Origin: Acaryochloris sp. IP29b_bin.148
GTDB lineage: Bacteria > Cyanobacteriota > Cyanobacteriia > Thermosynechococcales > Thermosynechococcaceae
Direction: 5' to 3'
Assembly: GCF_028285565.1 (NCBI RefSeq)
Contig: NZ_JANQOY010000139.1
Location: 1-45,677 of the forward strand
Length of the DNA: 45,677 bases
Shown here: positions 3,418 through 7,736 of the stretch, piece by piece
Position numbering within the stretch: the first letter of the stretch is position 1
How the letters are laid out: each line of letters starts with the position of its first letter
The notes under the pieces: model-generated
The model's database searches: none
What the model saw: only the letters and a program-made list of their open reading frames with translations
Told to the model about the DNA's origin: nothing
Position numbers and translations under genes: made by a program

Positions 3418-5049
3418 CTACAACGGTTCACCAGCCAGATACTCATCAGATTCAATTTGGCCATAATCGAGTTTGATAATTCGATCTGCCAGATGGAAGA
3501 AATGGTCATCATGGCTGATCACCAGTAGGGTTTTGCCTCGCTGTTTGAGTTCAGCCAACAGTTGCGTGTAAAAGATCTCCCGAAAAATGGGATCTTGGTC
3601 CGCTGCCCATTCATCAAATAAGTAGATGGATCGATTTTCTAGATAGGCAGACAACAGGGCTAACCGTTTTCGCTGGCCTTGAGAGAGTCCTGTAGTGGAT
3701 AGCTGTCCATCCTGTACAGAAACCTTCTTCTCTAGCTCTAGCTTGCGCAAATAAGTCTGGGCTTGTTTATCTAGAGTAGAGAAATCTTCGCTGATTAACC
3801 GCTTAAAGAGGTAATAGTCCGAAAAAACCGTCGAAAATAGCTGCCGATACCACTCACGATTGGTGTCTATGATGGGTTTTGAATCCAGACAGATCTCTCC
3901 TGATTCAGGGGTATACAACCCGGTAATCAGTTTGGCCAAGGTAGATTTACCACTGCCATTGCCCCCAACAATAAATATGAGTTCTCCTGAATTGATGGTC
4001 AGATCAATCGGCCCAACCGTGAACAGATGGTCGACTTCTGGGTCATGGTAGGTATGGACGACCTGGGCTAGTTTCAGCTGGTGCCACTGCTTGAGAGTGG
4101 GTTGTGTCACCACCGTGTCTATTTCTGCATTCTGAGACAGTGTTAATCCCATCTGGTTAACTTTCTGAATCGAAACATTGGCAGTTGCTAGATTCGGTAA
4201 GCGCTGGATAATATTGCCCAATGGTCCCATTAAATAAGTGAGGGTGAGGATATAGGCGGGTAACACGGCTTGAGTTGAGGGTAATACTTCGGGTACGCCA
4301 AACAGAAGTACGCCAATCAAAAGAAAGAATAGAAATTGCCCCCCGCCGCTGGATAATGCTGCAAACTTAAAAGCCGTTTTTTGTTGTCGACGGAAGGTTG
4401 CTGCACTGACCGTCAGATCTTCTTCAAAAAAGGTATTGCGACGGATAGCATGTAGCTTTAATTCTTTAATGCCATCGGTGATGCTGCGAAAATGAGTAAA
4501 TAATTGATCTACTTCCTGGCGAGATAGGCGAATATGGCGATAGGCAAGACCAATCAAAAGCTGGACCAAGGCAATAGAGACCACCATAAAGGCCACCACA
4601 ATCAAGAAGACCCAAACTGATAGCCAACCTAGATAGATTAAACAGCCACCCATCACTGCTAAGTCAATACAAAGGAAAGGAATGACAAATACAGTATTAG
4701 CAATCGCTTCTACGTCATTTGTCAAAGCCGCGAAGATTTGGCTCGGGCCTAATTGCTCCAACTGTCGTAAGGGAGCAGCGAGGATTTTCCGGCTGAGACG
4801 TAAACGCAGTTGATAAACAGAATTTTGAGACAGATCAATAAGTAAAAACTGGGATAGACTCCCGGTTACAAAAGCTAGAATGGCTAACCCTGCGAAGGCG
4901 ATTAGCATTGGCTGGGTGGCATTTTGGCTAATCGCGGTATTAATTAGAGCAATTAGTCGTGCACTACAAACGCCACTGATAACTCCCGTCAGAATAGCCA
5001 AGGTTGCACTCAGCCAAGAAGCCTGAATGAGGAGCCAGATAATCCGCAT
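3418..5049 (-). CDS. ABC exporter of the cyclic-peptide/siderophore type (SyrD/PvdE/YojI-like)
   Basis: This 543-residue half-transporter fuses a six-helix exporter membrane domain (about residues 1-310) to an ATPase domain. The ATPase shows Walker A GGNGSGKST (362-370), signature LSQGQ (455-459), Walker B IYLFDE (475-480) and the H-loop His in SHDD (about 513). The LSQGQRKRLALLSAYLENR stretch and the short overall length resemble the SyrD/PvdE/YojI group, which exports siderophore precursors, lipopeptides or microcins as a homodimer. No NRPS or ribosomal-peptide synthesis genes lie nearby, so the cargo is unknown. It lies 214 bp downstream of the PsbN-like gene on the same strand, which allows but does not prove co-transcription. 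Confidence 0.85.
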   Translation of the reverse strand: MRIIWLLIQASWLSATLAILTGVISGVCSARLIALINTAISQNATQPMLIAFAGLAILAFVTGSLSQFLLIDLSQNSVYQLRLRLSRKILAAPLRQLEQLGPSQIFAALTNDVEAIANTVFVIPFLCIDLAVMGGCLIYLGWLSVWVFLIVVAFMVVSIALVQLLIGLAYRHIRLSRQEVDQLFTHFRSITDGIKELKLHAIRRNTFFEEDLTVSAATFRRQQKTAFKFAALSSGGGQFLFFLLIGVLLFGVPEVLPSTQAVLPAYILTLTYLMGPLGNIIQRLPNLATANVSIQKVNQMGLTLSQNAEIDTVVTQPTLKQWHQLKLAQVVHTYHDPEVDHLFTVGPIDLTINSGELIFIVGGNGSGKSTLAKLITGLYTPESGEICLDSKPIIDTNREWYRQLFSTVFSDYYLFKRLISEDFSTLDKQAQTYLRKLELEKKVSVQDGQLSTTGLSQGQRKRLALLSAYLENRSIYLFDEWAADQDPIFREIFYTQLLAELKQRGKTLLVISHDDHFFHLADRIIKLDYGQIESDEYLAGEPL

Positions 5050-5263: not shown

Positions 5264-5470
5264 TTAATGGCTATGTCCATAGCCATGCCCATGACTGTGC
5301 CCATGGCTATGCCCGTGACTGTGTCCATGGGCAAGATCATGCTCTTCAAAAGGATCAACTAATTGTCTGGAGGGCGGGCCAAAAGCTACGTAGATAGCAA
5401 TACCAGTGAAGACAATTGTTACAACCAAGATGGTTACGATTAGAACTGATGCAGGATCAGAAATTATCAT
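5264..5470 (-). CDS. PsbN-like single-pass membrane protein with histidine-rich C-terminal tail
   Basis: This 68-residue protein has one transmembrane helix (about residues 8-30) followed by [16 protein letters not shown] (30-45). That block closely matches the conserved end of cyanobacterial and plastid PsbN (FGPPS-x-x-L-x-DPF-x-x-H-x-D), a thylakoid protein needed for photosystem II assembly and repair. Canonical PsbN stops there at about 43 residues. This one continues with 23 more residues made of Gly-His-Ser-His repeats, adding ten tail histidines that should bind Ni, Co, Zn or Cu. Its upstream neighbour on the same strand is a HupE-type metal permease, which suggests metal buffering or delivery. 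psbH, the usual psbN neighbour, is not in the window. The PsbN match is strong; the metal role is inference. Confidence 0.82.
5267..5335 (-). repeat. short tandem repeat encoding the Gly-His-Ser-His tail
   Basis: An imperfect 12-bp periodicity built on CATGGGCATAGC/CATGGGCACAGT-type units encodes the GHSH repeats of the PsbN-like protein. Such a tract can change length by slippage, so the number of histidines may vary between strains. Confidence 0.6.
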
Positions 5471-5636
5471 TATCTTTAGAGGTTAACTACTCAATAAAAT
5501 ATACAGTTTAATCTAGAAAAACTCTGTATTTTAAAAGGCATTGATTCATAAAAATCGAATGCAAAATAGTTAGCTTTTTAGCGCAAAAAAAGTATTAAAA
5601 GTTTTGGCAAATATCGCAAGATTAAACAAGGAAATC

Positions 5637-5726
5637 ATGAATCCATATCTGTTGAAGAATCTGATCTTCATGTTGCTGAAAGAGATTCTAGAAAGAATTG
5701 TAGCTTATGCTATCCAAGGCTTCTAA
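5637..5726 (+). CDS. possible 29-residue amphipathic peptide
   Basis: ATG 5637 follows AAGGA (5628-5632) by four bases and opens a 29-residue frame beginning MNPYLLKNLIFMLLKEILER and ending IVAYAIQGF. The pattern of hydrophobic and charged residues would form an amphipathic or membrane-associated helix. It matches no small photosystem or cytochrome subunit that I recognise. It runs antisense to the flanking HupE and PsbN-like genes. It could be chance, because short ORFs are common in AT-rich DNA. Confidence 0.25.
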   Translation: MNPYLLKNLIFMLLKEILERIVAYAIQGF

Positions 5727-5800
5727 TGCATGAAGTCAATAAATTGCTTTTTGATTTTCTGATTAGTACAAATAACAAGCATGGACTATTTTATACATAA

Positions 5801-5824
5801 AAAGCGAGAGAACCCTCTCGCTTT
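5801..5824 (-). terminator. Rho-independent-type terminator downstream of the HupE gene
   Basis: A perfect 10-bp stem (AAAGCGAGAG / CTCTCGCTTT) with a 4-nt loop. Read on the minus strand the stem runs into a short T tract (CTTTTTAT), 127 bp after the HupE stop codon. This suggests that the HupE and PsbN-like genes are mostly transcribed separately. Confidence 0.65.
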
Positions 5825-5950
5825 GAATATAGACAGATTTTGGTGGTAAAAGCAGGAAGAACTATGTTGATTCGAAAAGCAAAAAAATATTGTTTAAAAC
5901 CTGACTTGCTTTATGAATTCACCCTGAGACTTAGCTTTTTTAGTCAAGAG

Positions 5951-6580
5951 TTATAGTAAAGATCCTGAAAGAAGGTAGGCAACACCGATACCACAGATTC
6001 CTAATCCTGGATAAATTAAATTTCTATTGGAGGGGAGTAACTGTCTAGTGGCATAACAAATGATGTGACCAACCGCTAGTTGGGTAAGGGTGAAACTAAT
6101 CAAAAAATTGATTTGAGTAGAGGCAGGAAAAGTCTCAAGTAAAGCTGCATGGGGATAACCATGGCAAAATCCTGCGATCGCAACTCCCGCTACCAGCAAG
6201 CCAGTTGTTACCGTATCTACTTGAGTCAGTAAGACTCCAATGAGAAATAGTGAGATTGAGATTACTAACATACTGGGAATCTGAACGCCGAGGATCGCAA
6301 CCGCAATTCCCATCAGTGATGAACTGGTAAAAGCCCAAATCATCCCTTCTTTTTTACGAGATGCCAATAACCCTGCTGATGCGATTAAGGCCAAGTGATC
6401 TAAGCCCATTAGTGGATGAGTTATACCCACCCAGAAACCATTAACAGTGGTGATCTCTGCGCCATGGTGAGCAAATGCTGGTTTTATAAGCCCTCCAATT
6501 AGCAAGCTGATCACAATACCTAAACCGATCAACATCAGTCGAGCTATGGAATTAGCGTGTTGGGAAGCAGGCTGTTTCAT
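5951..6580 (-). CDS. HupE/UreJ-family metal permease
   Basis: The 209-residue protein belongs to the HupE/UreJ family, secondary permeases for nickel or cobalt. It begins with a signal-like segment ending KPAFAHHG (cleavage expected after Ala37), so mature His-His would lie at the periplasmic face. The family motif HPLMGLDH (residues 55-62) and a second His motif GFCHGYPHA (about 137-145) are present, with about six membrane helices. No hydrogenase or urease genes are in the window, so the metal user is elsewhere. The PsbN-like His-tail gene lies next downstream on the same strand but beyond a terminator-like hairpin. Substrate (Ni versus Co) cannot be decided here. Confidence 0.85.
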   Translation of the reverse strand: MKQPASQHANSIARLMLIGLGIVISLLIGGLIKPAFAHHGAEITTVNGFWVGITHPLMGLDHLALIASAGLLASRKKEGMIWAFTSSSLMGIAVAILGVQIPSMLVISISLFLIGVLLTQVDTVTTGLLVAGVAIAGFCHGYPHAALLETFPASTQINFLISFTLTQLAVGHIICYATRQLLPSNRNLIYPGLGICGIGVAYLLSGSLL

Positions 6581-7409
6581 GATTTATGACCTAAAATTTA
6601 TTTGCACCTAAAATTGGAAAGCTCAAAAATTAAACCAGCAATTGCTCTAGCTGGAGAGAGCATTAAAGTAGCATTGTTCTTGCATATTTTTACTACAAGC
6701 TCATTGTCTTTAAGGCAATATGGGATCTTCAGAAAAAAATTGGTTCTTGGGCATGGAGAACTCAATTGGGATACGGAGAAATAGTCCATCCTTATCTGTT
6801 CCCTGCGACATCATCGATATCTCTGAGGTGAATAGCTGGCATAAATGTGATCTCACCTGAGGACCACATCAATGCTGCAATCAACCTATGGTTTATCAGC
6901 CACAGAAAGGATTTGCTGAAACCTTTAACTATTGAGAATATTCTTAATTCAAGATAAGGTTATTAATAAATTTTTTCAATAAGGCCGCATATAAGATTTC
7001 TGTTCTAAATTGAAAATTTCATAAGGAGAAGCTATGTATCACAGAATTATCGCCTTTTAGGCCACTACTTTAAGAGCTCTATATAAATATGAGTGTAAAA
7101 TTTAGTTTTTATTTTATTGAGAATTATCTTGATAAAGAACAGGCTCGATTCAAGATTGTAACCATCTTGTTGGCATCAGAGGATGGAATAAAGAGCCGGT
7201 GTGTGGATATGGGTAATCCACACAGTGCAATGAGTATCAAAGCTTAAATACGACCATCAGTCATCACTCCTGCAAAATTCTAAGCAGAAATGATAGTGAG
7301 GAGAGGTTAATAATGCTGAAAAGTCGGGCTAGGAGACCAGCCGATAACCGATACACCTTATGTTGGCCAGATAACCGATACACTATGACTAACACCTAAC
7401 AAGTCGTTT
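6581..7409. other. gene-poor spacer of about 830 bp with decayed-looking sequence
   Basis: No long credible gene is present. Overlapping 60- and 63-codon frames near 6600-6785 look like mutual shadows. A strong AAGGAG (7023-7028) precedes an ATG with only eight codons (7034). A 52-codon frame (7089-7247) ends with CVDMGNPHSAM, which superficially recalls the MGNPH motif of diaminopimelate epimerase, but it has no supporting context. A direct repeat near 7343-7383 is listed separately. The stretch may be the debris of an old insertion. Confidence 0.45.
7343..7383. repeat. 14-bp direct repeat, two copies 27 bp apart
   Basis: GATAACCGATACAC occurs at 7343-7356 and again at 7370-7383, just upstream of cutA. 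Adjacent repeated motifs of this kind occur at the termini of some transposons, and they can also be operators. Neither reading is proven. Confidence 0.6.
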
Positions 7410-7415
7410 TTGGAT

Positions 7416-7736
7416 ATGGCTACAGACGCTATTGTGGTGATGGTTACCACCTCTTCCGAGGATGAAGCGGTTGCGATCGCAGCCCTTCTCGTTCGTGATC
7501 ACCTGGCGGCCTGTGTCAGTCTATTTCCCATCTCATCTATTTATACCTGGGATAAAAAGGTACGCCATGATCAAGAATGGCAGTTGATGATCAAGACTCA
7601 ACAGGATAAATTTGCGGATTTAGAAACGAAAGTGCGTGAATTGCACACCTATGATGTGCCAGAAATTATTGCCTTGCCCGTTACGGCAGGTTCGATGCCT
7701 TATCTCAACTGGATTTCAACCCAAGTCCAACCCTAA
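7416..7736 (+). CDS. cutA: CutA1-type divalent-cation tolerance protein
   Basis: This 106-residue protein has the full-length CutA1 trimeric ferredoxin-like fold signature: VVMVTTSSEDEAVAIAALLV at the start, then AACVSLFP, the YTWDKKV strand, and HTYDVPEIIALPV near the C-terminus. CutA proteins are small, very stable trimers linked to copper tolerance in E. coli; their biochemical activity is poorly defined. ATG 7416 is chosen over the in-frame TTG 7410. It is followed after about 20 bp by the Ycf20-like gene, perhaps in one transcript. Confidence 0.92.
   Translation: MATDAIVVMVTTSSEDEAVAIAALLVRDHLAACVSLFPISSIYTWDKKVRHDQEWQLMIKTQQDKFADLETKVRELHTYDVPEIIALPVTAGSMPYLNWISTQVQP

Follow-up and report, generated by a model that had tools for sequence, protein, structure and literature searches.

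The window that we analysed is a 45,677-nucleotide stretch of DNA from Acaryochloris sp. IP29b_bin.148 (genome G000). On its minus strand, positions 5264-5470 encode a 68-residue paralogue of PsbN with a histidine tail, which we call psbN2. Residues 5-45 match the Pfam PsbN family (PF02468) with 69.3 bits against a gathering cut-off of 25, the core motif FGPPS..L.DPFEEH is unbroken and the open reading frame is free of frameshifts and stop codons. An AlphaFold model based on seven sequences places a helix at residues 6-30 and gives the tail low confidence (mean pLDDT 67.6). The single N-terminal helix and the core block are those of PsbN, an assembly factor of the photosystem II (PSII) reaction centre, as the initial annotation had recognized. 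In contrast to PsbN, psbN2 has 23 extra residues with 10 histidines, lies outside the psbH-psbN arrangement and is a second copy in its genome. It also exceeds the length of PsbN proteins (about 43-46 residues, with an EEHED end in the genus) and falls 0.2 bits short of the NCBIfam PsbN equivalog cut-off (69.8 versus 70 bits). The tail (LAH(GHSH)3GHGYGHSH, positions 5267-5335, minus strand) starts after EEHD, where the canonical PsbN proteins of the genus stop at EEHED, and is encoded by a 12- and 24-bp tandem repeat. It had initially been described as made of Gly, Ser and His; its 23 residues and ten histidines were verified, but Leu, Ala and Tyr are also present. Its histidine density is above chance, since 40 shuffles of the window gave at most 8 His in 22 residues versus 10 in the real tail.

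The genome also encodes a canonical 46-residue PsbN on another contig (C86), where the next gene is the same as in the congeners. psbN2 is thus a paralogue, as first proposed. The further expectation that the canonical copy would lie beside psbH could be followed only in part: the copy exists, and because it is located at a contig end psbH is not visible there. In two congeners (G002 and G005) a psbH-like ORF, named by eye, adjoins the canonical psbN on the opposite strand. The neighbours of psbN2 are instead a hupE gene and an ABC transporter gene, and no intact PSII gene was found among the neighbours checked. In a phylogenetic tree built on few columns, psbN2 falls inside the Acaryochloris PsbN group with 98/95 support, together with six Acaryochloris-type rows.

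We then compared psbN2 with six canonical copies over 44 codons and obtained pS values of 0.40-0.55 and pN values of 0.14-0.19, whereas the canonical copies differ from each other with a pN of 0.01-0.05. With pN at roughly one third of pS over the helix part, psbN2 looks constrained, although less so than the canonical copies. In the tail, all 15 pairwise differences between the four GHSH units fall at codon position 3, with none at position 1 and none at position 2, and all four third positions are variable. By simple arithmetic, four variable columns falling randomly among twelve would all be third positions in 1 of 495 cases. A fifth tail unit, GHGY, brings two variable first positions. Judging from this substitution pattern, both the helix part and the tail of psbN2 look to be under constraint.

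Upstream of psbN2 and on the same strand, hupE (5951-6580) encodes a 209-residue HupE/UreJ permease that scores 81.1 bits with the Pfam HupE_UreJ family (PF04955), well over the cut-off of 23; the permease named in the initial annotation is therefore the right one. Between the two genes, at 5824-5801 of the minus strand, we found the hairpin described earlier, a terminator-like structure with a 10-pair stem and a T-rich tail; over the whole scan such sites are not more numerous than in shuffled sequences (2 versus a shuffle mean of 1.6). A promoter shared by psbN2 and hupE was considered and rejected, as 148-277 of 300 shuffles score as well as the region upstream of psbN2 when compared with the hupE promoter. 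Because of the hairpin and the lack of a promoter match upstream of psbN2, co-transcription of hupE and psbN2 is unlikely, in agreement with the first view of the locus. No Rfam element was detected up to E=1 between positions 4500 and 8000; in this interval we therefore saw no B12 riboswitch, a feature that distinguishes the gene from a riboswitch-controlled hupE of marine cyanobacteria, whose product is taken as a cobalt transporter in passages of PMC4284471. A gene for a CutA1 divalent-cation tolerance protein lies at 7410-7736, upstream of hupE and divergent from it.

The region directly upstream of hupE contains traces of other genes. When 6581-6930 was aligned with five psbFY genes (psbF-psbY fusions), 0, 0, 0, 1 and 0 of 300 shuffles reached the score, and the best alignments place a decayed remnant of the fusion at 6696-6902 (minus strand). 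The adjacent 6926-7050 (minus strand) shows homology to the psbE2 promoters of five genus genomes (scores 80-98), and 0 of 300 shuffles reached the score for any of the five. The psbE2 coding sequence was undetectable near the window hupE (21-257 of 300 shuffles score as well). Given the promoter homology and the psbFY match with no psbE2, the window hupE appears to sit behind a former psbE2-psbFY promoter whose genes have decayed; decay of psbE2 itself in the window is unsupported, only psbFY and the promoter region being detectable. The window genome retains a psbE2-psbFY pair on contig C132. Fur-type palindromes, according to what we take to be the Fur consensus, occur upstream of psbE2 in the genus with 2-3 mismatches and without shuffle control, and those of 6926-7050 are degraded. 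For the regulator beside psbE2 we dropped the identification as Zur, as it scores 107-113 bits with NCBIfam Fur versus 43-50 with Zur, all below the cut-offs.

The order psbE2 followed by the psbF-psbY fusion was seen in five genus genomes, that of the window included, and in one genome of another family, G031 (L143 6054-6641 of G000:C132, L079, L080, L078, L144 and L145). A further congener that has no psbE2 carries a psbFY-like fragment near a Fur-like gene (G005:C124, L146; query residues 46-98, 75% identity). The fusion protein of the window genome corresponds over its whole length to chain F of PDB entry 7ymi (185 bits), described in passages of PMC12661325 as the PSII-Pcb of Acaryochloris marina. 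The partner of the fusion sequence in this structure is a PsbE of canonical type (chain E), a pairing that may reflect how the chains were assigned. Passages of PMC5295598 give weak expression for the A. marina psbE2/psbF paralogues (AM1_1130 47 and AM1_1129 20, versus 34,459 for AM1_2630), and a review states, in the part available (PMC5438491), that psbE2 is raised by far-red light. AM1_1130/1129 would be the psbE2-psbFY pair of these genomes.

Close relatives of the window hupE (52-63% identity) are present in three congeners (G001, G003 and G004), while the other three have distant HupE proteins only (best E 1.9e-14 to 7.3e-14); the window genome has three further HupE genes, all distant from the window hupE. 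In the three congeners hupE comes after psbE2, a paralogue of cytochrome b559 alpha, and a 98-residue psbF-psbY fusion, with a FUR-family regulator adjoining, and on the other side of hupE lies sodX-sodN, directly next to it in G001 and G004 but separated by one gene in G003. We tested sodX and sodN with profiles in G004 (TIGR02754 78.4 versus 63.25 bits for sodX and Sod_Ni 170.7 versus 25 bits for sodN) and the remaining congeners by tblastn. Since sodX-sodN is convergent to hupE, this is a linkage and not one operon. An uninterrupted sodN is found in G000, G001, G003 and G004, and none was found in G005 and G006. In G002 two pieces of sodN are separated by transposase-like ORFs, named by eye (C2, about 828-830 kb; L203 and L204), and this genome also lacks the sodN-linked hupE. 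Thus all 4 genus genomes with an uninterrupted sodN have the hupE clade and none of the 3 others does, several of these assemblies being incomplete; hupE clade and sodN status agree in 7 of 7 genomes, with an exact probability of 1/35 by simple arithmetic. The sodN-sodX genes of the window genome are elsewhere, on contig C63, and no hupE adjoins them. Compared with other HupE/UreJ permeases, that of the window differs by the linkage of its clade, in three congeners, to cytochrome b559 paralogues and by its closeness there to the genes of Ni-SOD. Published roles of HupE/UreJ proteins comprise uptake of Ni or Co, and the HupE of Synechocystis was assigned a cobalt role (passages of PMC4284471). 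On the basis of its clade, the window HupE is a putative metal importer, with nickel as the most likely metal.

Among 58 genomes searched, from the genus and its relatives, a tailed psbN was present in the window genome only. None of the 6 congeners examined carries it, in a search that would miss tails of differing sequence, and the tail used alone as a query matched 1 of 7 genus genomes. The linkage of psbN2 to hupE is not kept either, the neighbours in the three hupE-bearing congeners being psbE2, psbFY and sodX-sodN. Conservation of tail and neighbourhood in relatives, on which the initial annotation had made its proposal depend, was therefore not observed. One other match, in G032, extends well beyond residue 46 with no stop, in a 405-residue frame, and is probably due to chance. 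The search, extended to 388 genomes of the class, matched 373, with no further tailed form among the matches listed. Scanning wider genome contigs with a pattern of the tailed protein gave at least one confirmed match (residues 31-66, Polyangium), read as a chance His-rich match, and no relatives were found in IMG/VR and among PLSDB plasmids; all these collections may lack entries for the window genome itself or for very close genomes. In a literature search limited to CC-licensed PubMed Central (titles, abstract starts and passages), we found no mention of a His-tailed PsbN and zero matches for the term 'PsbN-like'. The part families, PsbN and HupE, are already known; their combination is without mention in this search.

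A PsbN profile matched 371 of the 388 class genomes, 10 of them more than once, and we re-examined nine of these ten, leaving out G000. Two are of a different kind: G111 has a second PsbN-family ORF without a His tail (C5, L176 6076-6249, end NPCEDCKD, 44.8 bits), and in G006 the canonical psbN is divided over two reading frames (C152, about 40 kb; L075/L157), by sequencing error or decay. The other seven genomes (eight loci) belong to family f2, which we infer to be marine picocyanobacteria, and encode an extra PsbN-like protein with the motif [E/D]HARMHE[L/M]GIAHxH and 4 to 9 His from the motif on. Of these eight proteins seven were tested against Pfam PsbN (24.0-29.4 bits) and five of the seven passed the cut-off; in the clade overall the core motif has diverged (e.g. 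DTIDEHA) and the Pfam scores are 24-39 bits. A profile of those seven proteins gave strong matches (at least 90 bits) in 18 of 151 f2 genomes, five of which had supplied rows to the profile. The tree separates the picocyanobacterial clade from canonical PsbN and psbN2 with 100/99 support, and the His-bearing ends of psbN2 and of this clade are therefore most likely of independent origin.

We read 22 loci of this clade in three sets of 8, 8 and 6 stretches. In eight of them (G068, G306, G354, G408, G430, G465, G480 and G493; L185-L188, L191 and L193-L195) the PsbN-like gene precedes a SodT-like gene of the same strand by 160-280 bp, with sodX and sodN further along in G306 and G430. As the SodT-like proteins gave no meaningful match in Pfam and NCBIfam, the name relies on synteny with sodX-sodN and on inspection by eye. 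These loci and those of Acaryochloris resemble the sodN-sodX-sodT clusters of Ni-SOD described in passages of PMC4284471, with SodN and its maturation protease near an importer gene, here HupE in G001, G003 and G004 and SodT-like in G306 and G430. They differ from the published clusters by a PsbN-like His-bearing neighbour, of which those passages make no mention. In all eight SodT-linked genomes the His-bearing form is the sole PsbN-family match, G430 being 76% and G408 64% complete; the eight had been chosen, before SodT was seen, as showing one profile match each and are not a random sample. G452 likewise has one profile match, was left out of this check and has a locus without SodT. The SodT-linked tails hold 4-5 His, counted from the EH aligned to the canonical EEH, and near the richest tails, with 8-9 His (G102, G291, G297a and G345), there is no tested transporter. 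Queries for SodT or znu had no match in 13 of the 22 loci, among them L170, whose stretch ends soon after the gene, and six loci had zero query matches nearby, including the same short L170 at a contig end and G342b, which is partial and has no intact motif ORF. Another eight loci, none SodT-linked (L172, L173, L174, L189, L190, L192, L196 and L197), have a gene for a conserved protein of some 59 residues with one helix directly next to the PsbN-like gene. In G054 (L192 5733-10265) the PsbN-like gene is near genes for a ZnuA-family protein, an ABC-3 permease, an ABC ATPase and a FUR-family regulator.

The explanation that we favour, tentatively and at somewhat less than an even chance, is that psbN2 encodes a membrane-anchored metal-binding peptide that buffers the metal imported by HupE, likely nickel for Ni-SOD. 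psbN would have been duplicated and the copy retained by selection, its cytosol-facing C-terminus becoming a metal-binding tail. Passages of PMC4823308 describe the functional C-terminus of plant PsbN as stroma-facing and the protein as an aid to PSII reaction-centre assembly, and PsbN as seemingly non-essential in Synechocystis. The single helix would be a membrane anchor for PsbN2, leaving the tail on the cytosolic side, where the importer releases its metal and loading of SodN presumably takes place, so that the tail could catch and buffer ions coming through the adjacent HupE and hand them on. Nickel and Ni-SOD are favoured as metal and client because the HupE clade of the window travels with Ni-SOD, and delivery would then be to SodN. 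The metal role suggested at first sight fits with this co-occurrence and with the separate His-bearing PsbN-like clade beside a SodT-like gene. Several observations count against this explanation: the tailed form is confined to one Acaryochloris genome, the two genes have no shared promoter and a hairpin between them, the SodT-linked tails contain few His and the richest tails are those away from any tested transporter, three other distant HupE genes exist in the genome, G054 has zinc-uptake genes nearby and the SodT label depends on synteny. The position of the genome's own sodN-sodX on C63 without hupE counts against it as well, and the published cobalt role of HupE against nickel in particular.

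The metal might also be another one. GHSH repeats bind many divalent ions, and psbN2 could buffer cobalt, zinc or more than one ion, with the nickel link, or the hupE adjacency of a single genome, being coincidental. Besides this broad binding, the cobalt assignment in Synechocystis (PMC4284471, in part), the znu genes and FUR-family regulator of G054 and the 13 of 22 loci without SodT or znu matches would agree with such a buffer; we nevertheless think it fairly unlikely, as Ni-SOD-associated importer genes adjoin in both lineages, and the tree keeps the His-bearing forms of the two apart. Alternatively, the tail may act as a metal sensor or brake on the usual job of PsbN, so that PSII assembly or repair follows metal supply. 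The core motif kept in psbN2 and the linkage of this hupE clade to cytochrome b559 paralogues are in line with that idea, and the His-bearing form, being alone in eight picocyanobacterial genomes (two of them incomplete), may do PsbN's job there. Yet a canonical copy coexists with psbN2, the picocyanobacterial core motif has diverged and no intact PSII gene is among the neighbours checked, and we regard this possibility as unlikely. That psbN2 is a relic with no metal function, a duplicate psbN read through a lost stop into a slippage-prone repeat, would account for the tailed form in 1 of 7 genus genomes, the tandem repeat and the decay seen at the locus with the psbFY remnant; the intact reading frame, a pN of about a third of pS and the confinement of GHSH-unit differences to third positions make it improbable.

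For the preferred reading, a nickel buffer at HupE, CbtB and CbiN offer a comparison: these are small membrane peptides with a His tail that belong to cobalt/nickel importers. psbN2 is like them by description, with one helix and a putative metal-binding end beside an importer, on a scaffold that is that of PsbN. From its tail and neighbours, a nickel metallochaperone may serve as a working analogy for psbN2. A wider reading, which we consider doubtful, is that the PsbN family was recruited at least twice as a membrane-anchored, His-bearing nickel peptide that sits by an importer, HupE for Acaryochloris and SodT for picocyanobacteria, and relays nickel to Ni-SOD, and that canonical PsbN was replaced by it in some picocyanobacteria; through this replacement nickel supply, superoxide defence and PSII assembly would be coupled by a single peptide. 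If our explanation is true, the PsbN-derived peptide next to the importer would be a candidate, testable by deletion, for a chaperone on the path of nickel from import to Ni-SOD in cyanobacteria. It would further show that an assembly factor of the photosystem can be turned into a protein that handles metal, and would point to a function for a small gene conserved among ocean cyanobacteria. Together, the Acaryochloris and the distant marine cases hint at an unrecognised nickel-handling peptide.
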